Origin: Halobaculum saliterrae
Lineage (GTDB): Archaea > Halobacteriota > Halobacteria > Halobacteriales > Haloferacaceae
DNA length: 64,000 nt
NCBI RefSeq assembly: GCF_009831625.1
Contig: NZ_WUUS01000006.1
Span: 124,001-188,000, forward strand
Direction: 5' to 3'
The notes under the pieces: model-generated
What the model saw: only the letters and a program-made list of their open reading frames with translations
Databases searched by the model: none
What the model was told of the DNA's origin: nothing
Translations under genes and position numbers: made by a program
Shown: positions 37,674 to 60,869 of the stretch, one piece after another
Numbering within the stretch: the first letter of the stretch is position 1
Layout of the letters: each line of letters starts with the position of its first letter

Positions 37674-38486
37674 GTGGACCGTTCGCTCGTCGTCGCGCTC
37701 GTCGTCGGTGTGCTCCAGGGGGTCTTCGAGTGGCTGCCGATCTCCAGCGAGGGCAACATCACGATCGCGCTGTCGGCGCTGGGTCGCTCGCCGGACACGG
37801 CAGTCGCGTTCGCGCTGTTCCTCCATTTCGGAACGGCGCTGTCCGCGACCGTCTACTACCGCGGGGAGCTGGCGTCGATCGCCGCGCGGGTTCCGCGGTG
37901 GCGCCCGGACGCGGCGTTCGAGGGCGACCAGGCGGTCGTCTCCTTTCTCGCCGTCGGGACGCTGGTCTCCGGCGTCGTCGGCATCGCCGCGTACGCGACC
38001 CTCGAGGAGGTCGTCTCGGCGCTCACCGGCGGCGCGGTCGTCGTCGGCATCGGCGTGCTCCTCGTACTCACGGGGGTCTTCCAGCGGATATCCTCGGGAT
38101 TGGACGTGGACCCGCGGCGCGAGCCTGACGCGGGCGACGCCGTCCTCGTGGGCGTCGCGCAGGGGCTCGCGATCCTCCCCGGGATCTCCCGGTCGGGAAT
38201 GACGACCGGGACCCTCCTTCTGCGGGGCCACGACGCGCCCGACGCGTTCCGGTACTCGTTCGTGCTCTCGATCCCGGCGGCGGTCGGCGGCGGACTGCTC
38301 GCGTATCTCGACACGGGTCTGGGTGCGGTGACGCCCCTCGCCGCGCTGGTGTCGCTCGCGGCCGCCTGCATCGTCGGGTACGCCACGATCGACGCGCTCG
38401 TTCGCGTCGTCGAACGGGTGTCCTTCTGGGCCGTGTGTCTCGGGCTGGGAGCCCTCGCCGTCGCCGGTGGAGTACTGGTCCTGTGA
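37674..38486 (+). CDS. uppP: Undecaprenyl-diphosphatase family protein (UppP/BacA)
   Basis: The product has 270 residues with about eight membrane helices. Both signature motifs of the BacA family are present: QGVFEWLPISSEGN (residues 15-28, E/S-rich catalytic) and LPGISRSGMTTG (near 169). It removes phosphate from polyprenyl diphosphate; in archaea the natural substrate is dolichyl diphosphate released in glycosylation. So it would recycle the lipid carrier. It lies just upstream of the archaellin and the STT3-like gene. It is a monocistronic leaderless gene by its promoter. The family name is known; the dolichol role is inferred. Confidence 0.9.
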   Translation: MDRSLVVALVVGVLQGVFEWLPISSEGNITIALSALGRSPDTAVAFALFLHFGTALSATVYYRGELASIAARVPRWRPDAAFEGDQAVVSFLAVGTLVSGVVGIAAYATLEEVVSALTGGAVVVGIGVLLVLTGVFQRISSGLDVDPRREPDAGDAVLVGVAQGLAILPGISRSGMTTGTLLLRGHDAPDAFRYSFVLSIPAAVGGGLLAYLDTGLGAVTPLAALVSLAAACIVGYATIDALVRVVERVSFWAVCLGLGALAVAGGVLVL

Positions 38487-38600: not shown

Positions 38601-39206
38601 ATGTTCGAGTTCATCACGGACGAGGAAGAACGCGGTCAGGTGGGTATCGGGACGCTCATCGTGTTCATCGCGATGGTGCTGGTGGCGGCGATCGCCGCCG
38701 GCGTCCTCATCAACACCGCGGGATTCCTTCAGAGCAAGTCGCAGGAAACGGGACAACAGAGCAGTAAGCAGGTCAGCGACCGCGTCCAAGAGGTCGCAAC
38801 TGTCGGTAACGTCACGGATAGTGGTACTATCGACATCGTGAACGTGACGGTGACGCAGGCGCCCGGCGCCGGCGAGATCGACATCCAGAACGCGACCGTC
38901 ACCTGGATCGGGCCGAGCGGAACCTACCAACTCACCTCGACCACGCAGAACTATTCAAGTACTGATATCCAAAACGCCTCGAATGTGTTCTCTTATTCCG
39001 TCGTGAAGGACTCTGACGGCAGTGAGAACGTCCTCAACGACGCGGACGACCGACTGAACCTCGTGTTCGACACGAGCACTTTCACTAACGAGCTCAACGA
39101 AGGCGAAGAGGTCACGGTGAAGGTCAACACGATGGCGGGTGCGACCACGAGCATCCGGTTCACCGTCCCCGAGTCGCTTGGGAACAAGGAAGCCGTCGAA
39201 CTGTAA
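38601..39206 (+). CDS. Archaellin (type IV pilin-like filament protein)
   Basis: The product has 201 residues. A class III signal peptide ends in E-E-R-G and is cut before Q13 by PibD, leaving the hydrophobic assembly helix [43 protein letters not shown] is the start of haloarchaeal archaellins. Five N-glycosylation sequons (NVT twice, NAT, NYS, NAS) lie in the outer domain. The gene stands alone: no arlCDEFGHIJ neighbours in the window, so it is a second-locus archaellin or an archaellin-like pilin. It is followed by a T-run terminator. No Shine-Dalgarno is clear. Confidence 0.88.
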
Positions 39207-39417: not shown

Positions 39418-39843
39418 TCAGTTGGGACGATCCGTGAGGGAAGTCGGACGAACCCGGACGTACCGCACGCGTCGTTCGATCAGGAACCAGACCGCTACCA
39501 CCGCGCTCCCGAGCGTGTTCGCGAGGAGGTCGCCCCAACCGAAGTATCGGTTCGGGAGCGTCCCTTAGAGCAGTTCGATCCCGACACCGAGTGCGCCACC
39601 GACGACGAGAGCCGCTCGAACGACTGGACGGTCGGGATATCGGACGGTGGCGTACGCCAGCGCGAGCGCGAGCCCCCCGTAGGCGGCGAAGTGCAGGTGC
39701 TTGTCCCAGAACGGCGTCTGCGCCTGTGTCGGCGCCGACGGCGGCGCCGTGACCAGCGAGAAGTACACGATGCAGCCCAACACGCCCGCGACGCCGAGGT
39801 ACCTGACCCACCGCGGGAGCAGCGGAAACCTGACCCGGCTCAT
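39418..39843 (-). pseudogene. VanZ-family membrane protein with in-frame stop
   Basis: The frame begins at ATG 39843 with SRVRFPLLPRWVRYLGVAGV and reads WDKHLHFAAYGGLALALAYA, then GIELL, stop (TAA at 39567-39565), and continues GTLPNRYFGWGDLLANTLGS and AVVAVWFLIERRVRYVRVRP to the next stop at 39418. The conserved VanZ pattern E-L-x-Q-x-x-x-P-x-R-x-x-x-x-x-D-x-x-x-N-x-x-G spans the stop, and the stop replaces the glutamine (CAA to TAA would do it). So a single base change has broken a 141-codon gene, or it is read through. Start overlaps the stop of the STT3-like gene (ATGA), making it a coupled partner. VanZ proteins are of uncertain envelope role. Confidence 0.8.
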
Positions 39844-42134
39844 GTCGACGCGTTCACCCTCACTGTCGAGCCGGTTCGGACCGCGGACTCGTTGACCGTG
39901 ACGTTTCCGTTCCCAACACTGTACGTGCCGGGGTGGGCGACGCGGACCGTGTACGCACCGTTCGCGTTTGCCGTCGTCTGTCTGGTGTAGGCGAACCTCG
40001 CGCCCTCGACCTCGACGGTCGTCTCTACCGTCACAGTCGCGTTCGGCGTCGCGGTCCCGCGAAGCACAGCGCCCGGGACGAGCGTGAACACCTTATACGT
40101 CTCGTCGTCGCTCACGTACTGCAGTCGGTACCGCGCAACGCCTGCCGTCCCGTTCGCTCGCGAGCCGTGCTCACGATAGAGACGCGTCCCAAGTTGTGAC
40201 TCGTTGCCGACGGTATCGGGCGTGACGACGACGTATCCCGCGCGGTCCCCGAGTCGGTCGTACCACCCGGCCGGATCCGTCGAGGCGACGAACGAGGCGT
40301 AGTTCGTGCGTGCGTACCCGTACGACCGGGACTCCCCGTTCACGAAGTAGTTGTAATGGCGGTTGTCCGGCCAGAAGCTGAACACGTAGCTTTGCGGGTA
40401 CTCGAGGTCGTGTTCGGCGGCGTGGTCGCTCATCCACGACGCCGTCTCGTACTGTTCCTGGCTGTGGACGAGCTGTGCGTTCTTGAGCGGAACCTGTGCG
40501 GCGCCGAACGCGCCGAGGAGGACGAACAACGCCGCGACTGCGAAGACCGTCTGTCGGTCGGGCGTCCCGATATCCCGAACGGGATCGCCCCCGAAGGGCG
40601 TCGGCGGTCGCGCGACGTCGACGCGCTCCGCCAGATGGACGAACGCGAGGCCGCCGAAGACCGCGAGGAAGGGCCCGAGTTGCCCGACGAAGCGGACCTG
40701 CACCACCGCGAGCGCGAGGAAGTACCACGTGTAGACGACCGGCACGAGCCACCGGTCGTCCTCACGTAGGTGGTACGTCGCCCACAGGAGATACGGGACG
40801 CCAATGAACAGCAGCAAGCCGACAAGTAAGAGCCATCCGCCCGACTCCCCGAACAGCCCGGTCGTCTCGGCGATCGCGTCGGTGCGGACGAGGCGAGTAT
40901 CAAAACTTCGCGTCACTCGCGCCCACTGCTCCGGCGCGAGCCTGCTGAACGCGAACGCGCCCGCGATCGCGCCGACGAGTGTGACCCCGGCCACCCCCGC
41001 CGCCGGCAGTTCGACGCGACGGGCGAGCGTGCCGGCCAGCACCACGCCGAGTCCACCGATCGTCAACAGGACCGGGGAGACGGCGACGAGCGTCGTGTGC
41101 CACCCGAACGACGAGTGTGCGACCCACACGACCCCTGCCGCGAGCGCGCTCGCGGCGACGAGCGGGCCGCCGCTGCGCAGCGGGTCGCGGTCCGTGTACA
41201 CCGCGGCGATCGCGTCCGCGGCCACCAAGATTCCGAGCGGCACGACGAGGAGCGGGCCGGCGTCCCACGCGAGCGTCTGTCCGGCGACGCCGACCGCGAC
41301 CGCGGCCGTCGCCGCGAGCGTCCGGACCGAGGCGAGCGGTTGCGCGTCGATCGCATCGCGGACGACGACCGTCGCGCCGAGCGCGGTGAGCAGCAGCCAG
41401 ACGTAGTCGAACGCGTGGTGGTCGGCGAACCCCAGACTCGTCCGGAGGCCGTGGCCCGCGACGGTGCCCATGAACACGACCGCGGCGATCCCCACCCGGC
41501 GGTCGTCGGTCACCTCCACGGTGAGGCGATAGACGAGCACGCCGGTTACGAGAGCCGACACCACGGGGTACCACGCGAACACCTGTCCGGTGACGCCCGT
41601 GGATCCCCCGAGCAGCGAGGAAACGAACCACAGCGTCGCGACGAGCAGCGGTTCGCCCTTCGCGATCCCGCCCGGCACCGTCGTGAGCGTCGTCTCGGGG
41701 TCGGTGAGCATCCGTTCGACCCAGTAGCGGTAGAAGTAGGGGTCGTTCGCCGTGAGGACGACCTCCTCCTGGAAGACGGCCGGGAACGTCGTGATCCGGA
41801 GCGCGAAAACGACCGCCAACGCTCCGGCCAGCGCCGCGAGGACGCGCGGGTTCGGGAGGGACGGCAGCGAGACGTCGAGATCGCGGACCGGTTCGACGGT
41901 CTGCTCGGAGACCTCCCCGGCGAGTGCGCGGCGTGTCGCCGCGTGGTCGGCGACGACGTAGCCGTCGTCGGTCTTTGTGACGATACCGCGCGAGACGAGT
42001 TCGCCTAAGGCGCCGGAGTCGACGTCCACGTCGTCGAACGTCCAGGGCCCCTCCGGCTCAAGGACGGCGTCGATCGCGGGCTCGAGATCGGGCCGCTCGT
42101 CGAGGAGGTCGCTGACGTCGCGAGCGGTCACCAT
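39840..42134 (-). CDS. STT3/AglB-like oligosaccharyltransferase homologue with extra N-terminal domain
   Basis: The product has 764 residues. Residues 1-75 look like a winged-helix or a similar small domain (GALGELVSRGIVTKTDDGYV), then about 12-13 membrane helices and an outer C-terminal domain. The GT-C/STT3 marks are NDPYFYRYWVE in the first outer loop (D131) and GFADHHAFDY (D238-H-H), as in AglB. At about residue 588, where AglB has WWDYG, the sequence is VFSFWPDNRHYNYFVNGES and the motif is absent. The protein therefore could be a divergent transferase or an inactive homologue. Start ATG at 42134 is 28 bases after a TATA-like cttcattaccc. It overlaps VanZ by 4 bases. Confidence 0.75.
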   Translation of the reverse strand: MVTARDVSDLLDERPDLEPAIDAVLEPEGPWTFDDVDVDSGALGELVSRGIVTKTDDGYVVADHAATRRALAGEVSEQTVEPVRDLDVSLPSLPNPRVLAALAGALAVVFALRITTFPAVFQEEVVLTANDPYFYRYWVERMLTDPETTLTTVPGGIAKGEPLLVATLWFVSSLLGGSTGVTGQVFAWYPVVSALVTGVLVYRLTVEVTDDRRVGIAAVVFMGTVAGHGLRTSLGFADHHAFDYVWLLLTALGATVVVRDAIDAQPLASVRTLAATAAVAVGVAGQTLAWDAGPLLVVPLGILVAADAIAAVYTDRDPLRSGGPLVAASALAAGVVWVAHSSFGWHTTLVAVSPVLLTIGGLGVVLAGTLARRVELPAAGVAGVTLVGAIAGAFAFSRLAPEQWARVTRSFDTRLVRTDAIAETTGLFGESGGWLLLVGLLLFIGVPYLLWATYHLREDDRWLVPVVYTWYFLALAVVQVRFVGQLGPFLAVFGGLAFVHLAERVDVARPPTPFGGDPVRDIGTPDRQTVFAVAALFVLLGAFGAAQVPLKNAQLVHSQEQYETASWMSDHAAEHDLEYPQSYVFSFWPDNRHYNYFVNGESRSYGYARTNYASFVASTDPAGWYDRLGDRAGYVVVTPDTVGNESQLGTRLYREHGSRANGTAGVARYRLQYVSDDETYKVFTLVPGAVLRGTATPNATVTVETTVEVEGARFAYTRQTTANANGAYTVRVAHPGTYSVGNGNVTVNESAVRTGSTVRVNAST

Positions 42135-42396
42135 AGCGCCAGTCTGTGTCACTCGGGTAATGAAGCCGTCGTCTCGAAGGGCACGGCACGCACGGTGTGG
42201 CCGTGTGCGGTACGGCGTCGACCCGACCGGTCGCTACGAACGGCTCCCCCTCGGCGAACCGATCAGACCGATCGATCCGACTGACCACACGAATAGACAA
42301 TAGCTATATAACGATATCTTTCGAACGAAGACTATAGCCTTCGAGAAATTCGACGAGTCCGGATCGGGCCGCGGCCGGCCGGCGGGAACCGACCCG

Positions 42397-45879: not shown

Positions 45880-46311
45880 GTCCTGAAGTCATCCAATTGT
45901 CGCCTTCCCTAGGATATAATCCTATACTAGCTACTAAGAAGCTTTGTCGTGTATATTTGGCTCATAAGGGAACACATCGGCCAGAGTCACTCGGTATTTT
46001 CCTTCCAATCTCCGCTGTCTGTGTGGACAGCAACCTGCTAACGGTCTCTGCGGGGGATCGGTTGACTACTTTGTCCGCAGCGACCAAGCCAAGTGCAGTA
46101 GAGCGCTGAACACACCGATATACGCGCAATCGCGGAGCAACGCAGCGTTTCGATAGCCCAACAGGTACCGCTGGAACCACATGAATCGCCTATATCGACC
46201 GATACCAACTGTTTGAGAGACTCTGTGGCGGTTGGGTTGTGACCGGTAAGGAGCCACCGCTGCATCGGCATTCAAAACCAAGGCCCCTGCTATCTGGCGA
46301 TTTCGACGCAG
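45880..46311. other. Gap without a supported gene
   Basis: Several short frames exist on both strands, none with a recognisable product, and codon use does not look like haloarchaeal coding DNA. The stretch has lower G+C than the left side. I see no tRNA, attachment site or terminal repeat in it. Confidence 0.5.
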
Positions 46312-46617
46312 TCATCCGATATCAGACCACCAACGGGAGTCACGACGACCACGGCTATGATCGAGTATCCGGCAGCTCAATCTGATATACTCTCGAATAC
46401 CGACAGCACAGGCGATCTCCATCTCCAACGACAGATCCAAATACTGGCTGTAGCGGGCTTCACACGGCTGCTTGGGAATCGGCCATTCCTCACTACGAGT
46501 AGTTCTGCTAGCGCCGGTGACAACAGTACCCGTATCGACGTCGATTTCGACATGCTGCCGGCCTGTACCGGGAATATAAGCGGCGCAGCGACGGCGTTGA
46601 TCCGCCGATTCGACAGC
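46312..46617 (-). pseudogene. Open frame of 102 codons without start, coding-like
   Basis: Between a TAA at 46618-46620 and a TGA at 46312-46314 the minus strand reads AAYIPGTGRQHVEIDVDTGT, TVVTGASRTTRSEEWPIPKQ and LDLSLEMEIACAVGIREYIR. The acidic composition and dinucleotide use look like coding sequence, but there is no start codon near its head and I do not recognise the product. I take it as a fragment of a lost gene. Confidence 0.3.
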
Positions 46618-46713
46618 TTACCGTGGCGAGACAGCCGAATTCGGCACGAATAGGATTGAATCGGTCGAGTCACTACCTGAACGCCCGACAACCACCGTTT
46701 CTCGTGAAGCAGA

Positions 46714-47093: not shown

Positions 47094-47104
47094 CGTCACT
47101 GGAG

Positions 47105-47710: not shown

Positions 47711-47745
47711 TATCTTTGACTTATTTTCATATCCGTGATGGATCG

Positions 47746-48783: not shown

Positions 48784-50304
48784 ATGAGTGACGACAACAG
48801 ACTCTTCGATTCACGACTTTCTCTCGTCAAATATCTCCCTGTATTGGGAGTGCTCCTGCTTCTGACGGAGCCAATTCCAGCGGGCTACATTCCAGACCGT
48901 GAGCTCGCACACTATTTCCAATCAGTCGCATTCCTACGTAATGGAGTTGAATCATATACATACATAACATTACGCGAAAGTGACGCTGCGCTCCACCTTT
49001 ACTCGCTCCTCTCTGCGCCATTCGTGGCAATCGGATACGAAGCCGGTGGTCGACTGGTTAGTGTAATCGCCGCAGTTGCTGCAACGATCATCCTTGGGAA
49101 AACTGCACGCGACCTCTTTGGGCCAGTCGCTGGGATCGTCGGTCCACTATTATTGTGGGCTAACCCATTCTTCTTCCGATTTTCGTGGACCGTGATGCCT
49201 GAAGCACTAAGTATGGCTCTTACCGCCGTAGCCGTCTATGCCACAATCCAGTATACGGACACAGATAAACAGAAGTGGCTCGGAATCGCTGTACTCGCAT
49301 TGGTTGCCGGTGTGAGCAATCATCTATGGGAAGCAGCGATCGTACTTCCCATTGTTGTCATTCTTGGTTACCACCGGGAATACCGATGGAGCAGTGTATT
49401 TGTGATTGTAACCACTGTATCTGTGGTCGCTGTTTACTTATTGACCGAACTTCAGCCCAACCCGGCATCACCCTCTCACTATGCGGTCGTTGAGACAGGA
49501 TTCAGTATATTCTTTACCACTGGTTTCTGGTTACGGTTTCTCACACGGCCATTTTCACCATTCTATCTTGGGCATAGTTCTTTGTTTTATCCAGGATTAG
49601 TCCTTGGTGCATACTTTTTCTACCGACTTGTGACAAATCGTAGTATAGGAAAATTGATAGGTAAGGAGTACGCGGACATCGTCGTTTTGTCATGGCTGGC
49701 GGCGGGTGCGGCGATTCCGTTCGGACTTCCTGGTGGACTCAACCATCAGTATTATCTCTGGGGGTTGGTCCTCCCCGTAACACTCGCACTCAGTGGGATT
49801 CTTGAGCTTGTGTATCAGAACGCGAGAATGTATAATTATCAACAGACTGCGCAACGTGCTGTACACCTACTTCTGGCGGTTCTTGTAATGACGGCACTGC
49901 TGAACGCCGCAGTCTTTGAGGCCGGGATTGGCATTAACGGGTCTGCGTCTACCGCTGCACCCGTATTTGATCTTCGCGGTGAAGCAGATCAACGGTTCGC
50001 TAGTGACCCAATCACTGGGAAGGAAGCTGTCGAGACTGGATACGCTCTACGCAATTACCAGATCCAGAGAGTAAACGAAATTGTTTTTGTAAATAGTGGT
50101 ACTGAATTGTCATATATAACAATATACCGAGTGATCACATACAGTAACTTGGAGGTCCGTGGTGTATGGAAGCCATCACTTGATCGGAATGCTACTACTG
50201 GACCGCGATATATTACTGGATCACCAGAGGGCCTACAGTGTACTGTGATTATTATGGGGCAATCTGACGGCTCACTTGATATCAAAAGATGCAATCATAG
50301 GTAG
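48784..50304 (+). CDS. GT39/ArnT-like membrane glycosyltransferase
   Basis: The product has 506 residues, with about 11 membrane helices and a soluble C-terminal domain of 110 residues. The start YIPDRELAHYFQSVAFLRNG carries acidic residues in the first outer loop as in dolichyl-phosphate-sugar users (D-x-E type), and HLYSLLSAPFVAIGYEAGGR, LLLWANPFFFRFSWTVMPEA follow. It would move a sugar from a lipid carrier to an outer acceptor. G+C is much lower than in regions 1-5. It opens the locus on the plus strand. Identity is by fold pattern. Confidence 0.7.
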   Translation: MSDDNRLFDSRLSLVKYLPVLGVLLLLTEPIPAGYIPDRELAHYFQSVAFLRNGVESYTYITLRESDAALHLYSLLSAPFVAIGYEAGGRLVSVIAAVAATIILGKTARDLFGPVAGIVGPLLLWANPFFFRFSWTVMPEALSMALTAVAVYATIQYTDTDKQKWLGIAVLALVAGVSNHLWEAAIVLPIVVILGYHREYRWSSVFVIVTTVSVVAVYLLTELQPNPASPSHYAVVETGFSIFFTTGFWLRFLTRPFSPFYLGHSSLFYPGLVLGAYFFYRLVTNRSIGKLIGKEYADIVVLSWLAAGAAIPFGLPGGLNHQYYLWGLVLPVTLALSGILELVYQNARMYNYQQTAQRAVHLLLAVLVMTALLNAAVFEAGIGINGSASTAAPVFDLRGEADQRFASDPITGKEAVETGYALRNYQIQRVNEIVFVNSGTELSYITIYRVITYSNLEVRGVWKPSLDRNATTGPRYITGSPEGLQCTVIIMGQSDGSLDIKRCNHR

Positions 50305-50308
50305 AACA

Positions 50309-50341
50309 CAACAATTAAAAAAATAAAATATTCTATTGTTG
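50309..50341. terminator. AT-rich stem between convergent genes
   Basis: caacaat (50309-50315) pairs with attgttg (50335-50341) across a 19-base AT loop that contains A-runs and, on the other strand, T-runs. It sits between two convergent genes, so it may end both. Confidence 0.45.
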
Positions 50342-50431
50342 GCATATTATTTGATTTTTCTCAATCCAATAAACACTATCATATAATGTATGCTAGTTTG
50401 TCTTTCACCTAAGAAGAAGTGGATATCTGCC

Positions 50432-51655
50432 TCAGCGGCCTGAGGTGGTTCGGTTACTTTGCGCTTCATACGGACAAACTGCAAAGCCAAAAATCAACGC
50501 GGTGAGAACAGAATTGAAACTGATACCAAATAGTGAGAAACCAGCAAATGTCTGCATGATTGCGACCACAACAGCGACGATCCCTAGTGTAACGACCTCT
50601 GGGGGAACGGCCTTCCGAATCGAATCGGAAATTGCGACGATTGTGAAATATACATAGGCTGTTCCGCCGATAGCACCCGTGGTGAGGTACATACGGAGAT
50701 AAGAGTTGTGTGGGGTGTGCCCATGCCACTCTTCGCCTACGAACGGACGAATGAACCCTGCCCTACTCCCCGGACCGAAGCCAAAGATAGGCCGCGTAGA
50801 AAGGGCCTCAATCGTCCCCCTCCAGAGGGGAGTTCTCCCTCTCAGACCAAGAGATGAGATCACTTGGGGAAAAGGAAGGATGTCGGTGACCAGCCCGGTA
50901 AATATCCCTAACCCAATAACGCCGAGTACCGCCGTTAATCGGCTGAATTGAACACTATGGGTGCGCCAGATAACCAACAACGATGTTCCTGCTGTAACGG
51001 CTAAAAGTGCCGCTCTGCTCCCGCTGAGGAATACACCTAAGGAATTTATTGTGAAGAGTAATAACATGAAAATATTTTTACGTCGGTATAGCTCTGCCAT
51101 CGAGCAGATCGTCCCAACCGAGGTGAGTAACCCCATGACGTTCGGATTGTTCGTTACACTCTGGACTGGGTGGAGAGTTCCATTTGGTAAGAATTGTGGT
51201 TCAAATGGAAGTTTCCATGGCCAAGCTTTGATAGTAACACCAAGAGCGGAGTAATCACCGAAGATCGCCGTTGGAAGACCGATCGCAACAATGACTGCAC
51301 TAAACCCTGATGCTACACGTATGAACTCTCCTCGTGAAAAATAATTTGGCAAAACGTACAAACTGATTATAGCGAAGACTACGAAGGTCACAGAACGAAG
51401 TGTAACTATGAGAATATTCTGCCCATCAATTGCTGAAATAAAAATATGCATAATATAAACTGCAATGATAACTAGAATAGGATAAGACGGTCTTCTATGA
51501 CTCATCAGTTTAGTATCAGTTGTTATGAACACCCATCCAAGGATCAGTATGTAAATGAGCACTGTGAGTATGTATGCGTGCCTCTGTTGAATGAGATACG
51601 AGCGCGTCAACAGTGATACAAACATCAATATTGCTAGAAGAGCAGTACGTCTCAT
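50432..51655 (-). CDS. O-antigen ligase/polymerase family protein (Wzy_C)
   Basis: The product has 407 residues with about 11 membrane helices. The Wzy_C region is visible: SLGVFLSGSRAALLAVTAGT, GRTPLWRGTIEALSTRPIFG, and in the big outer loop GEEWHGHTPHNSYLRMYLTT with the H-x-x-H-N catalytic-type pattern. Such proteins join or ligate lipid-linked sugar units on the outer face. ATG at 51655 is preferred to an in-frame GTG at 51667, as the TATA-like atttttac is about 28 bases before it. It is divergent from the flippase gene. Confidence 0.82.
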   Translation of the reverse strand: MRRTALLAILMFVSLLTRSYLIQQRHAYILTVLIYILILGWVFITTDTKLMSHRRPSYPILVIIAVYIMHIFISAIDGQNILIVTLRSVTFVVFAIISLYVLPNYFSRGEFIRVASGFSAVIVAIGLPTAIFGDYSALGVTIKAWPWKLPFEPQFLPNGTLHPVQSVTNNPNVMGLLTSVGTICSMAELYRRKNIFMLLLFTINSLGVFLSGSRAALLAVTAGTSLLVIWRTHSVQFSRLTAVLGVIGLGIFTGLVTDILPFPQVISSLGLRGRTPLWRGTIEALSTRPIFGFGPGSRAGFIRPFVGEEWHGHTPHNSYLRMYLTTGAIGGTAYVYFTIVAISDSIRKAVPPEVVTLGIVAVVVAIMQTFAGFSLFGISFNSVLTALIFGFAVCPYEAQSNRTTSGR

Positions 51656-51752
51656 TACGAATCGCACCGCTCGCTACAAGTAAAAATAATCCGACTTGAA
51701 ATGAGACTCCACCATATGAGCTGGAACGCCGAGCTTTGGGTTACGAAAGACA

Positions 51753-51758
51753 TTTATC
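51753..51758 (+). promoter_or_regulatory. TATA-like box of the flippase gene
   Basis: tttatc is centred 28 bases before the flippase ATG at 51783, so transcription should begin at or next to the start codon. Confidence 0.5.
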
Positions 51759-51782
51759 CCAATCAACTCCGCTTGCTATCGA

Positions 51783-53234
51783 ATGGTTGAATCTCGCCAG
51801 ATGTTTCTCCACGATGTGTTCTACTCTTTTCTGCCGTTTGCGGTTAGCAAACTCCGCGGTGTCCTCGTTATTCCGATTCTGACGAAACTCTTCGGCCCCT
51901 CGACCTACGGTGTATGGATCCAGTATAGTATATCGCTGATTCTCATCACGAAACTGGCGAGCCTTGGATTAGAGAACGCGATGAACCGATATCTTCCCGG
52001 TGCTGACGACACACGACTTCGAGAAGACTACTATGCTGTTCTAGTAGTGACTCTAGCGACAGCCGTGGCAATTGGGCTATTCACTATTATATTTCGACAA
52101 ACGACAGCGGAATTTCTCTTCCCGACCGAGAGCGGTAGCACGATTCTCTTGTTACTCGCAACCGCATCGGTAGCTAATATCTACTTTGTCCAGACTTTAC
52201 AGATGCTACGATCGCAACGACGTATCAAGAGCATGAACCTCTGGCGATCCGCCCGAATCTTGGGTGAAGTCGGCTGTCTACTCGTTGGCGGCTTCTTCCT
52301 TAATTCAATTGTTGGTGTATTTCTCGGTATTCTTGCTCTCTATCTATTGTTCTCGTTACTGCTTTCGGTCCAAGCCGTTTCAATAGTCGGCGTCTCAATT
52401 CCGAGATTCGCTAATATCAGGTCATATTTGAATTTTAGCCTACCGCTTCTACTTTCGACCGTAGCGTATTGGGTTGTGAATACTTCTGACCGTTACGTAA
52501 TAACGTATTTTTTGGGACTTGATTCTGTTGGAATATATTCGGTTATGTACGCAATAGCGGCGGTAATCGGAACAGTCTCACATCCCATTATTAATGTCCT
52601 ATTTCCGGACCTCTCGGAGCTAAAGAAGGAGGGAGAAACGGAAGAATCTCAATCTCGACTCGGCATTATCGTTCGCTACTTTCTATTGTTCGCTACCCCG
52701 TCGATTGTTGGAATCATCATACTCAGGATACCAACTATCCGACTCATTAGCACGTCGACCATCGCTCGTGACGCCAATCTCATGGCGATCCTTGCTCCAG
52801 GAATGGCACTGTATGGAACATTTAATATATTTATCCAAGTATTGAAAGTTGAGGAAAGAACGCTACTTGTCGGTCTTCTCTGGGGAGGTGTTGCAATTTC
52901 AAACATCTGCTTGAATATCATCTTAGTACCAGTCTATGGCATCACCGGTGCCGCAATAGCAACGTTCACAGCCTTCGTAATTGGATTGACTTCTGCTGGG
53001 TGGTATCTCAGAGAAGATCTTGTACAGATTCGATTTGAATTTGTTCGGGTAGTTGCCTCCGCAGGTGTGATGGGTGTGTTTGTATTGATCATGAGATGGC
53101 AGTTATCTCCATTAGGGTTCCCATCGTTGTTTGCAACTGTTCTGGTCGGTATCGGTATATATACCATCTCTTCTTACCGTCTTCGGACCATTACTGGGCA
53201 CGAACTAAAATATCTCCAACAAAAACTGAGCTAA
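51783..53234 (+). CDS. Polysaccharide flippase (Wzx/RfbX-like, MOP superfamily)
   Basis: The product has 483 residues and 12-14 membrane helices. The N-terminal phrase VSKLRGVLVIPILTKLFGPS followed by TYGVWIQYSISLILITKLAS, and NFSLPLLLSTVAYWVVNTSD with RYVITYFLGLDSVGIYSVMY, are typical of the MOP flippase family. It moves lipid-linked oligosaccharides across the membrane. It fits with the polymerase, the glycosyltransferases and the sugar transferase nearby. Low G+C. Confidence 0.88.
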   Translation: MVESRQMFLHDVFYSFLPFAVSKLRGVLVIPILTKLFGPSTYGVWIQYSISLILITKLASLGLENAMNRYLPGADDTRLREDYYAVLVVTLATAVAIGLFTIIFRQTTAEFLFPTESGSTILLLLATASVANIYFVQTLQMLRSQRRIKSMNLWRSARILGEVGCLLVGGFFLNSIVGVFLGILALYLLFSLLLSVQAVSIVGVSIPRFANIRSYLNFSLPLLLSTVAYWVVNTSDRYVITYFLGLDSVGIYSVMYAIAAVIGTVSHPIINVLFPDLSELKKEGETEESQSRLGIIVRYFLLFATPSIVGIIILRIPTIRLISTSTIARDANLMAILAPGMALYGTFNIFIQVLKVEERTLLVGLLWGGVAISNICLNIILVPVYGITGAAIATFTAFVIGLTSAGWYLREDLVQIRFEFVRVVASAGVMGVFVLIMRWQLSPLGFPSLFATVLVGIGIYTISSYRLRTITGHELKYLQQKLS

Positions 53235-53288
53235 GGACCGCCTCAAGGCGGATGTATTTTATGTTAGTGCCTCTCCGTGTTACGCATA

Positions 53289-54443
53289 ATGGAGGCAGAC
53301 CAACACACGGTTTTCATTTTCTCGACACATGATATCTCCACCGTGCAGGGGACGACAGAAGCATACTACGTCTCACGATCGTTCGGGGAGCTATTCGATA
53401 CGCATGTGATCGGACCGTCCTCGACGAGAATTGTGGGTACGACATCGCACTCCTACTCGGCCTCCGGTATCCTTGGAGTCCTCTGGATGAACATTATCCT
53501 TCTCCCACGCTGGGTTTGGCTAGCGTGTAGAACGCGTCCAGACATCGTCTATGCTTATCGGAACGTCATACTTCCTCCAATCTTCCTGAAGATCTTGTTC
53601 GGTTCTCGAGTTGTCTGTGATCTTCAGGTACACCCAGTTGAACAGCCAAAAGAATTTAATAAAAACACCATAACAAACAAAATATTTTTAACATCGTCAT
53701 GGTTGGGACACAAGTTATTACTCGGTTTTTCTGATATTACAATCACGCTTAGCGAACCTCTCTGTCAGAGTATTGCTGAGAGCTTCGGCATATCAGAAGA
53801 TGAAATATATATCGTTCCGCTCGGCGTCGATCCCGATGTGTTTGTGCCACAAACCAAAGAAAATAAGGACAACTTTACCATTGTCTATGTAGGATCGATC
53901 AAAGCTCATCGAGGTATTGAATTTGTATTCAAGGGGTTGAACCAACTCTCGAAACAAACTCAGGAACGAATCAACGTTGAACTGTTTGGTCCCGTTGTCG
54001 AAGATTATGCAGCTGAAATCGAAGAACTAGCTAACGTCGGGGCATATTCCGTAACGTGGCACGGTCTGATCCCACACGAAGACGTACCCTATAAGGTAGG
54101 CAATTGTGATTGTGCAGTTTCCCCGCTCCCGCCACACGAGGGATTCAATGTCAGTTCACCCGCAAAGATATACGAGTACCTCGCACTTGGACTACCGATT
54201 ATCGCCACAAGAATAACACCGCACCAACGGATTCTGGAACATGAACATGACGCTCTTTTCGTGGAACCAGACGATACACAGGAGATGTCAGAGGCTATTG
54301 AGCGGCTTATATCAAATGAGCGGCTTCGTTCTGAACTCGGAATGAATGCGAGAGAGAAAGGTATCGAAAACAGCTGGGAGCGTCGAATCCAATCCATTTT
54401 AGAAGTGGTCAGTGACGGGACGAAGGTCGATATTCCCAATTGA
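53289..54443 (+). CDS. Glycosyltransferase family 4 (GT-B)
   Basis: The product has 384 residues. The C-terminal half shows FTIVYVGSIKAHRGIEFVFK and PLPPHEGFNVSSPAKIYEYL followed by ALGLPIIATR, the E-x7-E phrase of retaining GT4 enzymes (the first glutamate is in HEGFN). The N-terminal half has TRPDIVYAYRNVILPPIFLK. It uses a nucleotide sugar at the inner membrane face. The ATG at 53289 is preferred to a GTG at 53277. It follows the flippase by 54 bases. Confidence 0.85.
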   Translation: MEADQHTVFIFSTHDISTVQGTTEAYYVSRSFGELFDTHVIGPSSTRIVGTTSHSYSASGILGVLWMNIILLPRWVWLACRTRPDIVYAYRNVILPPIFLKILFGSRVVCDLQVHPVEQPKEFNKNTITNKIFLTSSWLGHKLLLGFSDITITLSEPLCQSIAESFGISEDEIYIVPLGVDPDVFVPQTKENKDNFTIVYVGSIKAHRGIEFVFKGLNQLSKQTQERINVELFGPVVEDYAAEIEELANVGAYSVTWHGLIPHEDVPYKVGNCDCAVSPLPPHEGFNVSSPAKIYEYLALGLPIIATRITPHQRILEHEHDALFVEPDDTQEMSEAIERLISNERLRSELGMNAREKGIENSWERRIQSILEVVSDGTKVDIPN

Positions 54444-54526
54444 CTCTGACATCGGTTGAACATTCGTCTGTCCCGTCGGATCGGAGAATCTATGTAACCT
54501 TGTAATAGAGTTTCTGGAGTCACGAT

Positions 54527-55720
54527 ATGCTCTCAACACTCACAGAACGGGGGCAAGTCGATAATGTTTTGATCTTCGTCTCGGATAGTCACCGATTCGA
54601 TTCGGTACCGAAGACAGTAACCCAACATGGAGTTACCTTCGAAGGTGTATCTGCCAGCACCTTCACCGCATCTGGGTTGCCATCGATTCTGACCGGCCAA
54701 CTCCCGAGCACTCACAAGATATGGCACTTCGACGATCAACTTGAACGAATGCCGCCGCTACTAAAGAACGCCCGAAACGTAGGATTCAATGCGGAAACAA
54801 TTTGGACCGATCTTCCCCCCCGCCAGAAACCACCACTAAAGATCCACCATGTAGATGAGAGAACGAAATTGGATGAGTTAGATTCCCCTTTTGTCCACAT
54901 TGTTCACGATAAGGGGGGTCACTCCCCATATAATGAAGACTTCGAGAACTCGCAAGGTTCTGAAGCATACTTCGAGAACGTAGGTTCACACAGATCAGCA
55001 CGAAATGATTATGTAGATGCGGTAGAAAGCTCTGCCGACCGATTTGCTGATATCGTAGCCCAACTTGAAGATCGGTCGATACTTGAGGAGACTCTCCTTA
55101 TTTTTTGCAGTGATCATGGAGAATTTATTGGCGAGAAAAACCTCGGTCAGATCTATGGCCACGGCCATCCGATGGCACCACCGTTAGTACAGGTCCCTAT
55201 CGTCTTTTGCGGTGCCGGTCTCAAGAGCGGCGTAGTTGCTGATGAGCCTATCTCAACAGCAGATATCGCTCCGACCGCAATGCGGTCGTTGGGATGGTCG
55301 CCTCGTCAAGATATTTTTGGTCAGAGTATTTGGCGGAAAACCCCGTCGAGATCGCAACCGTTGCTTTCCGAAGTCTGGAAAAAGGGAAAGCACCGGGGAA
55401 GATCTTATAATAAGTACGCGGCCACTGGCGCATGGTCAACAGGTGAATCCGGTGTCGTATTCCATCGATATTCAGCACTCGCTCGTGCATCGTACGGACT
55501 TGCAACACATCTGTACACGGCTTCCCATGCGTCTCTAACTCGCTCCCATGCGAACCACGTTACTATTAAAAGAATTCTAGGCTCTCACAGCCCGGGCGTT
55601 GTCAAATACGGTTCTAATTTGGAGGTTTCCCGGGAATCAGTAACGAACGAGTTTGAAGCGGCGGATAGGACTCAATACGATATCGACGAAGAACAGCTCA
55701 AGAAATTGGGCTATCAATAG
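54527..55720 (+). CDS. Sulfatase-like alkaline phosphatase superfamily protein
   Basis: The product has 397 residues. VDNVLIFVSDSHRFDSVPKT brings the first metal aspartates, STFTASGLPSILTGQLPSTH stands at the nucleophile, and LIFCSDHGEFIGEKNLGQIY the second metal site (D-H-G-E). The sulfatase signature C-x-P-x-R is replaced by S-G-L-P-S-I, so it lacks the residue modified to formylglycine and the conserved arginine. It is more likely a phosphatase or phosphodiester-type enzyme acting on glycan than a true sulfatase. No signal peptide, so it works in the cytoplasm unless anchored by a partner. Confidence 0.75.
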   Translation: MLSTLTERGQVDNVLIFVSDSHRFDSVPKTVTQHGVTFEGVSASTFTASGLPSILTGQLPSTHKIWHFDDQLERMPPLLKNARNVGFNAETIWTDLPPRQKPPLKIHHVDERTKLDELDSPFVHIVHDKGGHSPYNEDFENSQGSEAYFENVGSHRSARNDYVDAVESSADRFADIVAQLEDRSILEETLLIFCSDHGEFIGEKNLGQIYGHGHPMAPPLVQVPIVFCGAGLKSGVVADEPISTADIAPTAMRSLGWSPRQDIFGQSIWRKTPSRSQPLLSEVWKKGKHRGRSYNKYAATGAWSTGESGVVFHRYSALARASYGLATHLYTASHASLTRSHANHVTIKRILGSHSPGVVKYGSNLEVSRESVTNEFEAADRTQYDIDEEQLKKLGYQ

Positions 55721-56855
55721 ACGATTGATCAAAACAGTGCTTCTTGTACAGCTCTTGGACCTGTCGAGCTGAGTGTTCACATCTGAACCTTTCGACGCTC
55801 TTTCGACAGCGATCCGTCATCGCTACTCTCAGTTCATCGTCTTCAAGCAACTCCGAAATGGCATTCTTAAGCTCCTCAACGTCTCCTGGGTCGTACAGTA
55901 GTCCTGTCTCGCCGTCAGCCACTTGTTCGGGGATTCCTGCAATACGCGTTGAAACAACTGGTGTACCCGATGCCAAAGCCTCTGAAATAACTCGAGGCGT
56001 CCCTTCTCGATATGATGGGAGAACGAAGACATCGGACGCCGCTAGGAGATTTGGAACATCAGATCGATAGCCGAGGAGTCGAACGGCATCGGACAACTCA
56101 CTTTCTTCGACTCGGGTTGTAAATTCCTCTGCGATCGGCCCGTCGCCGGCTATTATGAGTTCGACACTTATTTCTTGTCTTAAAGACTTGAAGGCATCTA
56201 ACAGGTCGTAGAGTCCCTTACCCTCCGCGAGACGACCCACAAACAAGAGTCGATGATCAGCGTTGCTCTCCGGTAATATGGCTGGTTGTGAGTCGGCGAA
56301 CGCATCAATATCGACACCGTGATATATAAGTTCGTACTGCTCAGGTTCCCCAATCCCCCGATCGATAAATTCCTCTCGTATCCGTTTTGATTTGACAATT
56401 AACAGATCTGTAGTTCGTGCACTCACTCGCTCAGCAGCCAGCACGAATGCGTTCAAGAGGGGGTGGTGGTCCTCCGAAATGGGGTCTCCGTGAATTTCGT
56501 GGACGACAAACGGCGTGCGTGCTAAAAATGCTGCCCATCGTCCTACGATCCCTGCCTCGGTGCTGTGGGTATGGAGAACGTCAATGTCGTTGCGATGGAG
56601 GTACCATGCGATAGTTAACACTGCAATGAGCGCAGCTATTGGGTTATAGTGTCGTAACCTGTGAAAAACAACCGTCTTGACGCCCTTTGATTCTGCGTCT
56701 GCGAGTCGATCCTGATCGTGTGCTTCTCCAGTACCTAGGTGTAATTCATACTCCTCATCAGCCTCATGGAGCGCTTTGATAGCGTTATCAGTCGTCGTTT
56801 CAGCACCTCCGTTCAAATAACGCGTAATGAGGTGCATTACGGCTACCTCACTCAT
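55698..56855 (-). CDS. Glycosyltransferase family 4 (GT-B)
   Basis: The product has 385 residues. VAVMHLITRYLNGGAETTTD is the nucleotide-sugar N-domain loop (N-G-G-A-E), IDVLHTHSTEAGIVGRWAAF, then LLFVGRLAEGKGLYDLLDAF and LPSYREGTPRVISEALASGT (E-x7-E) at the C-domain. Starts at ATG 56855, overlapping the stop of the deacetylase gene (ATGA), and its 3' end overlaps the convergent plus-strand sulfatase-like gene by 23 bases. Product is cytoplasmic, on the inner membrane face. Confidence 0.88.
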   Translation of the reverse strand: MSEVAVMHLITRYLNGGAETTTDNAIKALHEADEEYELHLGTGEAHDQDRLADAESKGVKTVVFHRLRHYNPIAALIAVLTIAWYLHRNDIDVLHTHSTEAGIVGRWAAFLARTPFVVHEIHGDPISEDHHPLLNAFVLAAERVSARTTDLLIVKSKRIREEFIDRGIGEPEQYELIYHGVDIDAFADSQPAILPESNADHRLLFVGRLAEGKGLYDLLDAFKSLRQEISVELIIAGDGPIAEEFTTRVEESELSDAVRLLGYRSDVPNLLAASDVFVLPSYREGTPRVISEALASGTPVVSTRIAGIPEQVADGETGLLYDPGDVEELKNAISELLEDDELRVAMTDRCRKSVERFRCEHSARQVQELYKKHCFDQSSIDSPIS

Positions 56856-57814
56856 CTGTTGTCTCCCCTCTGCCAGCGTCCCTCCCGATATGCTGTTGCG
56901 ACATCCGACATCGACATCACTTCCAGTTCGCCCTCGTCACGGAGTTCTGCTGCCGTACCAAGGATCGCATCGAGTTCAGCGAGTAGCATGTCCCGATCAC
57001 TGGCCAGGTTACATGGATGAAACCACAAGTGGAATATTTCGCCGGTCTCAGCAGCTCGGCGCAGTCCCTTCTTAGCTCGCGTTCGCTGTGAGTGACATGG
57101 AGTGTACTGCCAGCCGTTGTGATATGGTCTGAACACCTGTGATCCCGGAATTTTGACCAGTCCACGGCGTTTGCTTGGCGTGACCGTCGGGGGTGTCAAC
57201 TGCGTTAATTCCTCAAGGAAGCGTATTCCCGGTTTTACAACTTTGGGAACATTCTCATGCTCGAACCATCGTTGATCGAGTCCGCGGTACACCTCAAATC
57301 CACGGTCAGCGAGTAATTTTTGATGGCCAATCTCGTTACGTGGATAAATGAAACTGTCCGGATCGATACCCTCTGCAGCTGCGATATCCAGTGCTGTATC
57401 TATCTCTGCCGCGGCCACGTCATCGAAACAGCCGTTCGCACCGAGTATCATGTGGGTATACCCATGGAGGCCTATATCATGATCCACCGTTGCGTTTCGA
57501 ATCGTTTCCAGTATCTCAGGAGCGTACCAGAGGTCCCGACTCACTTTGCTCCGACAGGGTAACGCCGACATCCAATCAATCCACTCGAAGGCTGGCTCTG
57601 GTTCCTCGTGGCTGCCTTCACAGTCTCTGAGGAGGTGGGCGACGAGCGCCCACGTCGCTGAGATTTCGTGCCGATCAAACAGTCTTACAAGATCCTCGAT
57701 TACTGCTGGAGTATTTTCGAAAGCTGAGCGTTCTGTCTCGACATCGATCATATCGAACCTCCCCCACGCCAGTTCCGTATCGAGCGAAACAATGAATACT
57801 CCGGGCTTGCTCAT
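56852..57814 (-). CDS. Polysaccharide deacetylase (NodB-like)
   Basis: The product has 320 residues. VFIVSLDTELAWGRFDM has the catalytic D of the first NodB motif and DHDIGLHGYTHMILGA the second motif with two His; YPRNEIGHQKLL is the third. It probably removes N-acetyl groups from the glycan. No signal sequence, so it acts on a nucleotide- or lipid-linked precursor inside. It overlaps both the GT4 gene downstream and the AP-superfamily gene upstream by 4 bases, so the three are a tightly coupled operon. Confidence 0.85.
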   Translation of the reverse strand: MSKPGVFIVSLDTELAWGRFDMIDVETERSAFENTPAVIEDLVRLFDRHEISATWALVAHLLRDCEGSHEEPEPAFEWIDWMSALPCRSKVSRDLWYAPEILETIRNATVDHDIGLHGYTHMILGANGCFDDVAAAEIDTALDIAAAEGIDPDSFIYPRNEIGHQKLLADRGFEVYRGLDQRWFEHENVPKVVKPGIRFLEELTQLTPPTVTPSKRRGLVKIPGSQVFRPYHNGWQYTPCHSQRTRAKKGLRRAAETGEIFHLWFHPCNLASDRDMLLAELDAILGTAAELRDEGELEVMSMSDVATAYREGRWQRGDNR

Positions 57815-59361
57815 TTGTATCCCAAGTCTTCGAGCCGATCAGATACGGATCCCGTTCTATCGACTGCCCTCTGATCTATCTCGTCGCTGGCCGTGACTCG
57901 GTTCGGTTCGCGATCTGCCGCATCTGAACCGGCCGCGAATAACTCACTTCGAACCGTCCCGTCAAAGAAGGTGGGAATATCCTCGCCATGTAGATGGAGA
58001 ATTGTCGGAGCGATGTCTAGAATGTGCATCTCCGACGAGAATGAGTCCGTGACGAAATCGTCTCCGTACGCCATGAAAAAACCAGTTTCCTTGTTCTCTC
58101 CTCGCCACGTATCGGGGTCATCGAAAACAGAATCAGCCCCGATGCTCCCATCAATATGGACATTGGGTGCTTGCCGAAGAATTATATCGGGACCTTCGTC
58201 AAGGTATGGGCCATTATACACGGAAGCAGCTGGGAGTGCCTCGCTCACGACAGTGGTTCCTTGGTCATCGACTAGTCCATCAAGTGCTTCAATAAGTTCA
58301 CTACGGATTCGTTCGTGTTCAGTCGGATCATCGGAGAGAACATACAGAGGGCCCTGCCCACTAGCCACGGCTGTTGATTGATCCCAATCGATGACCGACT
58401 CTTTGCCACTCTTTTTAATCCGTCCGTCCTCTGACGGAAGCATATCTTGGACCCGGTCTGGAATAAATTGACGTAGCCACCACTCAATTCCGAGTTTTCC
58501 GAGGAACGGACGAATACGTTCTCTGGTGATTCCCAACCGCGACAACCAATCTGTACTGCTATCGGTAGTGATCAAGTATCCCTGTTGTTTAAGCCAAGTG
58601 TTAATGTGAAATTCAATCTTAGTTTCGTTTGAACCATGATCGGACATCACGAGTAATCGATTGAGTTCATCTGCCTCTAATAACTCGCCGACGCGGTCGT
58701 CGATCCGTTGCCAAGCTTTCTCAACGACGGGATCGTCCCAATAAAAATGTTGGAGCATGTTCAGGTAGAATACTGTCAGATGTATATACTCATACTCACC
58801 GGTGGCTAATTCATCGAGGAGTACATCGAACCGCTGATCTATCAATCGGTATATTTCGTCAACACACGGGCTATCGGGATTATCTTTTGAAAGTAAGGAT
58901 ATCTGTTCCGGGTGGACTTGATAATCGTATTCATCTCTCAGTTTACTCTCTAATGACGCAGGACTAGTAAAACCGGTTTGCTCTGCTCCTGGACCGCCGG
59001 AAATGTGGATTCCATTAACATCCGGTGGCGGATAACTTGTAGGAAGGTTAATTACTGCGACATCATGATTAAGCCGTCGCCAAAACGGTTCACCATCAAA
59101 ATTCTCAATTCTGCTTGTATTACGTATATTATGCTTCTCTCTATCTATCGTTTCCCACCAGAAAACTCCGAGTTTCCCCGGATTTTGCCCGGTGGCGTAA
59201 CATTGCCAATTCGGACACGTTACCGGCGGTACACAGCTCTGCATATCTCCAGCGGTTCCTTTTCTCTGTATATACTCAATATTCGGGAGCTTATTGTTTT
59301 GTAACCAAGGCTCAATGAGTTCGAAGCTCCCACCATCCAATCCAAGAGTAACTGTTGTCAT
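57811..59361 (-). CDS. Alkaline phosphatase superfamily phosphodiesterase
   Basis: The product has 516 residues. The start TTVTLGLDGGSFELIEPWLQ gives metal Asp, CVPPVTCPNWQCYATGQNPG the threonine nucleophile (P-P-V-T-x-P-x-W, as in nucleotide pyrophosphatases/phosphodiesterases), and LLVMSDHGSNETKIEFHINT the second metal site. The family cleaves phosphodiesters of nucleotides or phospholipids; in archaeal glycan loci it is common but of unknown substrate. It starts the minus-strand operon 57811-55698, 104 bases after the stop of the sugar transferase. Confidence 0.82.
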   Translation of the reverse strand: MTTVTLGLDGGSFELIEPWLQNNKLPNIEYIQRKGTAGDMQSCVPPVTCPNWQCYATGQNPGKLGVFWWETIDREKHNIRNTSRIENFDGEPFWRRLNHDVAVINLPTSYPPPDVNGIHISGGPGAEQTGFTSPASLESKLRDEYDYQVHPEQISLLSKDNPDSPCVDEIYRLIDQRFDVLLDELATGEYEYIHLTVFYLNMLQHFYWDDPVVEKAWQRIDDRVGELLEADELNRLLVMSDHGSNETKIEFHINTWLKQQGYLITTDSSTDWLSRLGITRERIRPFLGKLGIEWWLRQFIPDRVQDMLPSEDGRIKKSGKESVIDWDQSTAVASGQGPLYVLSDDPTEHERIRSELIEALDGLVDDQGTTVVSEALPAASVYNGPYLDEGPDIILRQAPNVHIDGSIGADSVFDDPDTWRGENKETGFFMAYGDDFVTDSFSSEMHILDIAPTILHLHGEDIPTFFDGTVRSELFAAGSDAADREPNRVTASDEIDQRAVDRTGSVSDRLEDLGYK

Positions 59362-59465: not shown

Positions 59466-60869
59466 TTATATCACTTCATCCAATACAATCCACACCTGTC
59501 TTGTAACAAGCTTGAAATCATATCCCAACGACTGGTCGCGAACATACTCTAAGTCATATCGCAACTTCTGATCCGGCTCAACACCTGTAACTCCACTCAC
59601 CTGCGCCGGCCCAGTCAGCCCTGGTTTTACGAACCACCGCTTCTGCCAGTCCACCACACCAGTCTGTATGTCAGAGTCTAACTCCGGTCTTTCTGGACGC
59701 GGTCCGACCACGCTCATATCACCCCACAGCACAGACCAGAGTTGCGGGATCTCATCAAGATGCGTCTGCCGCAACACGCGACCCACGTCCGTCACACGCG
59801 GGTCCACGCCGCCGTCGTCCTCAGCACTGAGCGTCACACCCGTCTCAGCCTCGGCGTTCTCGACCATCGACCGGAATTTGTACACGTCGAACGTCTCACC
59901 GAACACGGCTGTCCGCTCCTGACGATACAACACCGTTCCCCCGTCGTCCAGCTTGATCGCCACACAGATCCCCAAGATCACCGGCGACACCGCGACCAAC
60001 CCCGCCACCGAGAACGCCACATCGAACGCCCGCTTCGCCATGTAGTCCTGCACGTCCCATGGCTCGATCACCACGTCCACCAGCGTCCCCATCTCATCAT
60101 CACCAGTCAATACCGTGTCAGCGTGGTCGCGATGCACCTTCGCGTCGACGCCGTGCTCGTAACACGCGTCCAGCGCCCCGAAGAACTCCGCCCGGTCGGC
60201 CTGAGCGAACGCAAGCACCACGGTGTCCACGTCTTGCTCCACTAGCACGTCCTCAATGCGAGACAGTCCACCGAGCCTACTCACCCCGCCGAGCGACACC
60301 CCCCCGTCGGCGACTACAGGGTCCCCCACTGTCTCATGGGCACGTAGCGTGGTCGTCGGGCAGAGGTAACCCAGCGGCGCTCGGTCCAACTCACTGATCA
60401 CGTCCTCAATCACCCCGGGGTCGTCGCCGACGACAAGCACCCGCTCGGACTCACTGTTGGGACGGCGCCCCACCCACACGAACCATAGCGGGAGCGCGAC
60501 AAAGAGGATCGGTGTCACGAGCAGCACCGTCATCCGCGGGACTGCGTAGGTGTAGTCGAAGTAGCCGACAGTTGCGACCGCGAGGATGGCGACGAACAGG
60601 CGCTTGTGCACGAGCGCGACCGTGTTGAGGATCCGACGCGGCCGCGGGCGGTAAAGCGGGAAGAACGCGCCCGTAATCACCGCAACTGTCACCAATAACT
60701 CGATGGTAAACTCCGGCGCAGCCGGGGGATCCGTCGGCAGCTGCCCCAGCACGGGAGCCATCGACGCGAGCGACTGGACGGTGGCGTTGTTGACCACGCC
60801 GACCGCGAACGCCGACAGGAGAACCACTCCCGCGACGCTGCCCAGTCGATACCGCCAGCCTCGGTCCAT
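59466..60869 (-). CDS. Phosphoglycosyl transferase, WbaP-like (bacterial-type sugar transferase)
   Basis: The product has 467 residues. Four to five membrane helices at the N-terminus and a nucleotide-binding-like domain (RVLVVGDDPGVIEDVISELD) precede the PGT core: KRAFDVAFSVAGLVAVSPVI, RTAVFGETFDVYKFRSMVEN, TGVTLSAEDDGGVDPRVTDV, DEIPQLWSVLWGDMSVVGPR and KPGLTGPAQVSG. It moves a sugar phosphate from a UDP sugar to the lipid carrier, the first step of glycan assembly. G+C is back to high, so it may belong to the older chromosome flank. Alone on its strand at 59466. Confidence 0.9.
   Translation of the reverse strand: MDRGWRYRLGSVAGVVLLSAFAVGVVNNATVQSLASMAPVLGQLPTDPPAAPEFTIELLVTVAVITGAFFPLYRPRPRRILNTVALVHKRLFVAILAVATVGYFDYTYAVPRMTVLLVTPILFVALPLWFVWVGRRPNSESERVLVVGDDPGVIEDVISELDRAPLGYLCPTTTLRAHETVGDPVVADGGVSLGGVSRLGGLSRIEDVLVEQDVDTVVLAFAQADRAEFFGALDACYEHGVDAKVHRDHADTVLTGDDEMGTLVDVVIEPWDVQDYMAKRAFDVAFSVAGLVAVSPVILGICVAIKLDDGGTVLYRQERTAVFGETFDVYKFRSMVENAEAETGVTLSAEDDGGVDPRVTDVGRVLRQTHLDEIPQLWSVLWGDMSVVGPRPERPELDSDIQTGVVDWQKRWFVKPGLTGPAQVSGVTGVEPDQKLRYDLEYVRDQSLGYDFKLVTRQVWIVLDEVI

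Follow-up and report, generated by a model that had tools for sequence, protein, structure and literature searches.

The window, the whole 64,000-nucleotide stretch of the Halobaculum saliterrae genome that was analysed, carries on its reverse strand a gene for a protein of the STT3/AglB fold that lacks the WWDYG motif of oligosaccharyltransferases (OSTs). The gene and its recognisable parts are listed here, with residues numbered throughout on the 770-aa form.

39840..42152, reverse strand: STT3/AglB-fold protein without WWDYG; 770 aa from the GTG at 42152, 764 aa from the ATG at 42134
41922..42125, reverse strand: N-terminal winged-helix-like domain (residues 10-77), common to the N-terminus of archaeal EMC3/TMCO1 (PF01956)
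41736..41747, reverse strand: NDPY (residues 136-139), first acidic metal/acceptor site; N136, D137 and Y139 invariant; D47 in A. fulgidus AglB
41415..41423, reverse strand: DHH (residues 244-246), second metal site; D161/H163 in A. fulgidus AglB
40866..40868, reverse strand: E429 of A-I-A-E, external-loop-5 Glu; E360 of AglB and E319 of PglB; invariant in the main family alignment
40692..40694, reverse strand: R487 of Q-x-R-F, putative lipid-phosphate Arg; invariant
40350..40373, reverse strand: W594-N601 (WPDNRHYN), conserved replacement of WWDYG; W594 and N601 invariant, R598 98%

Around it lie a polyprenyl-diphosphate phosphatase gene, an archaellin gene and, further off, a low-GC glycan locus (48784..59361).

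37674..38486, forward strand: BacA/UppP polyprenyl-diphosphate phosphatase (PF02673, 2e-49), genomic partner of the family
38601..39206, forward strand: archaellin (PF01917, 6e-39), between BacA and the OST gene
39424..39843, reverse strand: VanZ-like gene, overlapping the OST stop codon
44039-45436, reverse strand: DUF4330 protein, upstream of the OST gene; relatives near the family gene in 6/33 loci
48784-50304, no strand assigned: PMT_2 GT-C, low-GC glycan locus
50432..51667, reverse strand: Wzy-like polymerase/O-antigen ligase family protein (PF04932)
51783..53234, forward strand: Wzx-type flippase (PF01943)
53277-54443 and 55698-56855, no strand assigned: GT4 genes, low-GC glycan locus
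54527-55720, no strand assigned: sulfatase, low-GC glycan locus
56852-57814, no strand assigned: deacetylase-like, low-GC glycan locus
57811-59361, no strand assigned: phosphodiesterase, low-GC glycan locus
59466..60869, reverse strand: phosphoglycosyltransferase (PGT; Bac_transf, PF02397), homologues of which adjoin the family gene in other genomes

The BacA/UppP gene is 1.4 kb from the OST gene. The archaellin is a possible acceptor, and a second Halobaculum genome has a 78% identical archaellin at the same place. The VanZ-like gene has an in-frame TAA near 39565 beyond which the frame continues, so that either the gene is broken or there is a sequencing error; in two further Halobaculum genomes a relative, 77-79% identical, directly adjoins the family gene. 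Positions 46000-60000 form an island of low GC (45-54% vs about 68%) that was probably acquired and that holds a full Wzx/Wzy/PGT-type glycan locus. The genes at 48784..59361 would belong to the same pathway, although the Wzy, Wzx and PGT genes, 8-18 kb from the OST gene, may serve another polymer.

The original prediction held that both metal/acceptor motifs were kept, that WWDYG was missing and that an extra N-terminal domain was present, and all of this was borne out. NDPYFYRYW begins at residue 136 and GFADHHAFDY spans 241-250, there is not one WW pair in the entire protein (residues 589-606 read YVFSFWPDNRHYNYFVNG), and residues 10-77 fold separately in the order H-H-H-E-E-H with a pLDDT of about 90. 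Neither the architecture nor the motif is due to chance, as both recur in the family members that were read. Pfam matches were found for STT3 (residues 126-256) and AglB_L1 (694-743), and the TIGR04154 profile matched the protein at E 4.8e-36 with 124.5 bits, below its curated cut-off of 450. A canonical AglB with WWDYG, scoring 889.6 bits against the same profile, is encoded on another contig of the H. saliterrae genome and the protein described here is therefore a second enzyme.

An AF2 model based on 34 sequences (mean pLDDT 90.7, pTM 0.82) has the predicted GT-C membrane fold of STT3, AglB and PglB and places the protein in the STT3/OST superfamily (GT66). The top solved match was A. fulgidus AglB 3WAJ (VIA), with a Z of 35.9 over 592 residues, while 7E9S covers 632 residues; STT3A (Z 31) and PglB (Z 25.5) came next (VIA). 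A. fulgidus AglB-L (PDB 3WAJ, 7E9S, 5GMY) is thus the best structural match and its D47, D161, H163 and E360 have equivalents in the family, but it has no counterpart to family residues 1-95 and its WWDYG sequon pocket is replaced.

In the model a disordered linker (82-96) connects the N-terminal domain to TM1. No Pfam entry matched residues 10-77 and a Foldseek search with the domain alone returned nothing significant (best E 0.27, with several winged-helix regulators among the weak rows), so the winged-helix-like fold class rests on secondary structure and the kinship on a profile match to EMC3. Against the genome the domain profile found one other protein, of the EMC3/TMCO1 type (PF01956, 1.6e-45) and adjoining adenylate kinase, which hhalign aligned to the domain with a probability of 96.7 and an E of 3.5e-10. 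A Haloglomus EMC3-type protein likewise has an N-terminal domain related to that of the OST family. The winged-helix-like domain that had been predicted is real and has a relative at the N-terminus of the archaeal EMC3/TMCO1 insertase, the remainder of which differs in being an Oxa1-superfamily membrane protein and no glycosyltransferase. This domain of haloarchaeal EMC3/TMCO1-type insertases (L084:1480-2397; L055:2252-3214), the same as that of the OST family, is unnamed in Pfam. EMC3/TMCO1/Oxa1-type proteins act at the translocon, and it is reasonable to infer from this that the domain docks the enzyme there, as the sequence relationship suggests.

Conservation was examined across 34 aligned members, in which N136, D137, Y139, D244, H245, H246, E429, Q485, R487, F488, W594 and N601 were invariant and R237 and R598 nearly so. 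The site of AglB is made up of D47, D161, H163, R154 and E360, and its WWD reads the hydroxyl of the Ser or Thr at +2 (PMC7226087). In the place of WWDYG the family has the motif YVxSxWGxNRxYNYxVNGE, and alignment with AglB puts W594 on the second Trp of WWDYG. WWDYG itself was not found in any family member whose region was read, whereas nearly all AglB rows of the same scan have it. Judged by alignment, the catalytic positions are all kept and the putative sequon reader alone is replaced. The proposal that the Asp of WPDN (D592 in the original prediction) could replace WWD fails because this Asp is variable in the family, the conserved residues being W594, R598 and N601; as the counterpart of the WWD Asp it was ruled out. 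A subclade of nine rows (L086-L088, L090-L094 and L096; support 100), mainly from kinship families f7 and f4, replaces DHH with EHR(L/P)(H/Y) or a similar sequence; its second metal site is therefore different and it may work differently.

The family proved to be widespread. By protein search, relatives turned up in 73 of the 167 genomes of the same taxonomic family, and named relatives belong to Halobaculum, Halomarina, Halorientalis, Salinibaculum, Halolamina, Halosimplex, Haloglomus, Natronomonas, Haloarcula, Halorubrum and Halobium. At E<=1e-20 the core profile matched 249 of the 392 genomes of the order, of which 206 were strong family matches and the remainder weak, mostly cross-matches to AglB. 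Profile scores were bimodal: rows above about 190 bits were without WWDYG, and those below 165 were AglB, WWDYG being present in the scanned stretch of nearly all of them. It is also clear from the tree that the family does not group with AglB (TIGR04154, archaeo_STT3), since 69 family rows and 23 AglB rows fell on opposite sides of one branch with an SH-aLRT of 100; some branches within the family are long. Public annotation gives its members as 'STT3 domain-containing protein', 'hypothetical protein' or 'LamG-like', and a literature search, with most subscription journals outside its scope, found no description of a WWD-less AglB paralogue. This large and uniform haloarchaeal family is apparently undescribed. 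A C-terminal LamG/ConA-like lectin domain (PF13385), possibly binding glycan or the S-layer, was seen in L024, L054, L057, L059 and L060. In Salinibaculum sp. KK48 the chromosome bears one family copy and a 52.6-kb plasmid another (L045, L046); with five further records, six members are plasmid-borne, none of them from Halobacterium, and the gene therefore moves between replicons.

Compared with haloarchaeal AglB (TIGR04154, GT66), the family shares the STT3 fold, the acidic first site, the second metal motif, the external-loop-5 Glu, the Arg of Q-x-R-F and a C-terminal beta domain of the AglB_L1 type. It differs in having DHH where AglB mostly has DHN, in the absence of WWDYG, in a shorter C-terminal part, in the extra N-terminal domain and in its linkage to BacA and PGT. 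AglB is the sole Stt3 homologue in Hfx. volcanii (PMC3871713). None of 12 sampled genomes of a Haloferax-like genus (S-layer ERGDLDAD in two) held the family, and for that reason the missing OST of the Hfx. volcanii low-salt pathway (Asn-498) was ruled out as its identity.

The association with BacA bears on the donor. Across the 392 genomes 174 had both the family and BacA, 32 the family only, 49 BacA only and 137 neither (Fisher 1e-32), and within genera mixed for the family the association held (Mantel-Haenszel OR about 30, p 2.7e-18). In one genus BacA was present in 15/15 genomes with the family vs 2/17 without, and in another in 15/15 vs 0/4. The two genes are also linked: of the 94 genomes in which both were placed, 59 have them no more than 50 kb apart and 21 no more than 5 kb apart; within 60 kb BacA was found near the family gene in 10 of 21 genomes vs 2 of 21 for AglB. 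A homologue of the PGT (PF02397) occurred in 16 of 33 neighbourhoods, in eight of them about 70-160 bp from the family gene. No BacA match was found in 32 family genomes, including Halobacterium G227. Since PGTs make polyprenyl-PP sugars and polyprenyl-PP is recycled by BacA, a dolichol-PP-linked glycan is the probable donor. This is unlike AglB of Hfx. volcanii and Hbt. salinarum, the donor of which is dolichol-P (PMC3871713; PMC11980604).

The leading candidate acceptor is the S-layer N-terminus. S-layer proteins were found with TIGR04207, the top-scoring genes were read and mature N-termini were assigned by signal-peptide pattern. Mature S-layers starting A-N occurred in 26 of the 64 family-holding genomes and in 3 of the 51 that lack it (Fisher 1e-5; within genus p 0.018), and Asn at position 1 or 2 in 39/64 vs 4/51 (1.8e-9; within genus p 0.005). 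A caveat that must be applied is that the within-genus association is modest, with few mixed genera and related genomes; the S-layers of 38 of the 64 family genomes do not start A-N. The residue at +2 from Asn-2 (28 sites) was D in 11, S in 6, A in 3, V, E and N in 2 each and G and P in 1 each, giving Ser/Thr in 6/28. The S-layer of H. saliterrae starts ANSV and its gene (G000:C6:206282) is outside the window, 40 kb from the OST gene; in 8 of 54 genomes no more than 25 kb separated a family gene from a listed S-layer gene.

The puzzle of Asn-2 and Ser-4 in Halobacterium reportedly dates from 1998. Asn-2 of its S-layer bears a repeating-unit glycan attached via GalNAc, which is built on dolichol-PP and blocked by bacitracin, and Ser-4 could be replaced by Val, Leu or Asn with the glycan kept, a result for which there was 'no suitable explanation' and for which one OST gene alone was known (PMC2952790). 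The question was still listed as open in 2019 (PMC6591318). The predicted dolichol-PP donor, the predicted Asn-2 position and the predicted independence of Ser-4 would fit the family to a hypothetical second OST of Halobacterium salinarum that attaches this glycan. In Halobacterium genome G227 a family member and the S-layer gene are 3.3 kb apart, the former having GlmS, a PGT and two sugar nucleotidyltransferases as neighbours. After the signal the S-layer of G227 reads ANAD, Asn-2 being kept and Ser-4 absent. The putative assignment of G227 to H. salinarum rests on one protein, bacteriorhodopsin, which is 100% identical to that of H. salinarum; identity with NRC-1 or R1 is not claimed because the S-layer N-terminus is only 38% like the laboratory-strain sequence. 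The family may be the unfound enzyme behind the Asn-2 glycan. In Halobacterium G254 a decayed family copy (L124, G254:C1:214031) lies 1.2 kb from an S-layer gene (G254:C1:215397), and the genome also has an intact copy about 52 kb off.

The best explanation, for which the chances are judged to be even, is that of an active, translocon-docked second OST that moves a dolichol-PP glycan onto an Asn near the S-layer N-terminus without Ser/Thr at +2. It draws on the predicted fold, conservation, clade, linkage, co-occurrence and the statistics of S-layer N-termini. The glycan would be made on dolichol-PP by the phosphoglycosyltransferase, flipped by Wzx and possibly polymerised by Wzy, and the OST would then transfer it to surface proteins, chiefly the S-layer glycoprotein, on an Asn at the mature N-terminus or close to it. 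Ser/Thr at +2 would not be read, because SxWGxNRxYN replaces WWDYG, and the dolichol-PP released would be recycled by the phosphatase encoded nearby. The cytoplasmic N-terminal domain probably docks the enzyme so that it meets the N-terminus of its substrate on emergence. The original suggestion of a new variant with another acceptor has gained support from the separate clade, the conserved replacement motif and a genomic context unlike that of AglB, with the S-layer as the presumed acceptor. The full proposal, of a sequon-independent OST family that N-glycosylates the S-layer N-terminal Asn with dolichol-PP polymers from a translocon tether and that explains the Halobacterium Asn-2 glycan, is advanced more tentatively, at somewhat under an even chance.

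Several other readings were weighed. An active OST might use dolichol-PP glycans at ordinary N-X-S/T sites, with +2 read by W594, R598 and N601 or by a partner protein and the Asn-2 link coincidental. The catalytic core and the BacA/PGT association are independent of the acceptor, W594 keeps the place of the second Trp and Ser stands at +2 in 6 of the 28 Asn-2 sites; however, with WWDYG gone from every member read and Ser/Thr missing from most Asn-2 sites in family genomes, this is unlikely. Slightly less probable again is transfer to a non-protein acceptor (a glycolipid, an exopolysaccharide or the S-layer glycan itself) in the manner of an O-antigen ligase with an STT3 fold. The nearby Wzy-, Wzx- and PGT-type genes and the lectin domain of several members, which could bind sugar, would suit such an enzyme, but the equivalent of the invariant E429 in OSTs holds the acceptor carboxamide, the S-layer linkage and Asn enrichment point to protein, and ligation or polymerisation could fall to the separate Wzy_C protein that is also encoded.

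The original prediction also allowed for an inactive homologue, and a catalytically dead STT3 protein with a scaffold or regulatory role might account for the missing WWDYG and for the altered second metal site of the EHR subclade. A dead paralogue would drift, whereas in the main clade D137, D244, H246, E429 and R487 do not vary over many genera; this invariance of metal, acceptor-amide and putative phosphate residues argues against it, and on this conservation an inactive pseudo-enzyme was rejected. That the family so closely co-occurs with a polyprenyl-PP phosphatase implies that the donor is being turned over, and this argues the same way, leaving a dead homologue very improbable. An ordinary divergent AglB paralogue of no distinct function is, if anything, a shade more improbable: the TIGR04154 E-value and the STT3 and AglB_L1 domains are what it would lead one to expect, but its TIGR04154 score is far short of the cut-off and its clade is separate (support 100), with an N-terminal domain, a motif and a gene neighbourhood of its own.

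The family is a conserved and overlooked second OST family, the members of which are most likely active, dolichol-PP-dependent and sequon-relaxed. To our knowledge the WWD motif and the N-X-S/T rule have been treated as universal for STT3-type enzymes. If the proposal is true, a family present in about half of the sampled haloarchaeal genomes has kept its catalytic site, dropped WWD and would break the N-X-S/T rule. It would supply a named candidate gene both for the Ser-4-independent Asn-2 glycan and for an enzyme using a dolichol-PP carrier, and a sequon-relaxed OST would also serve glycoengineering.
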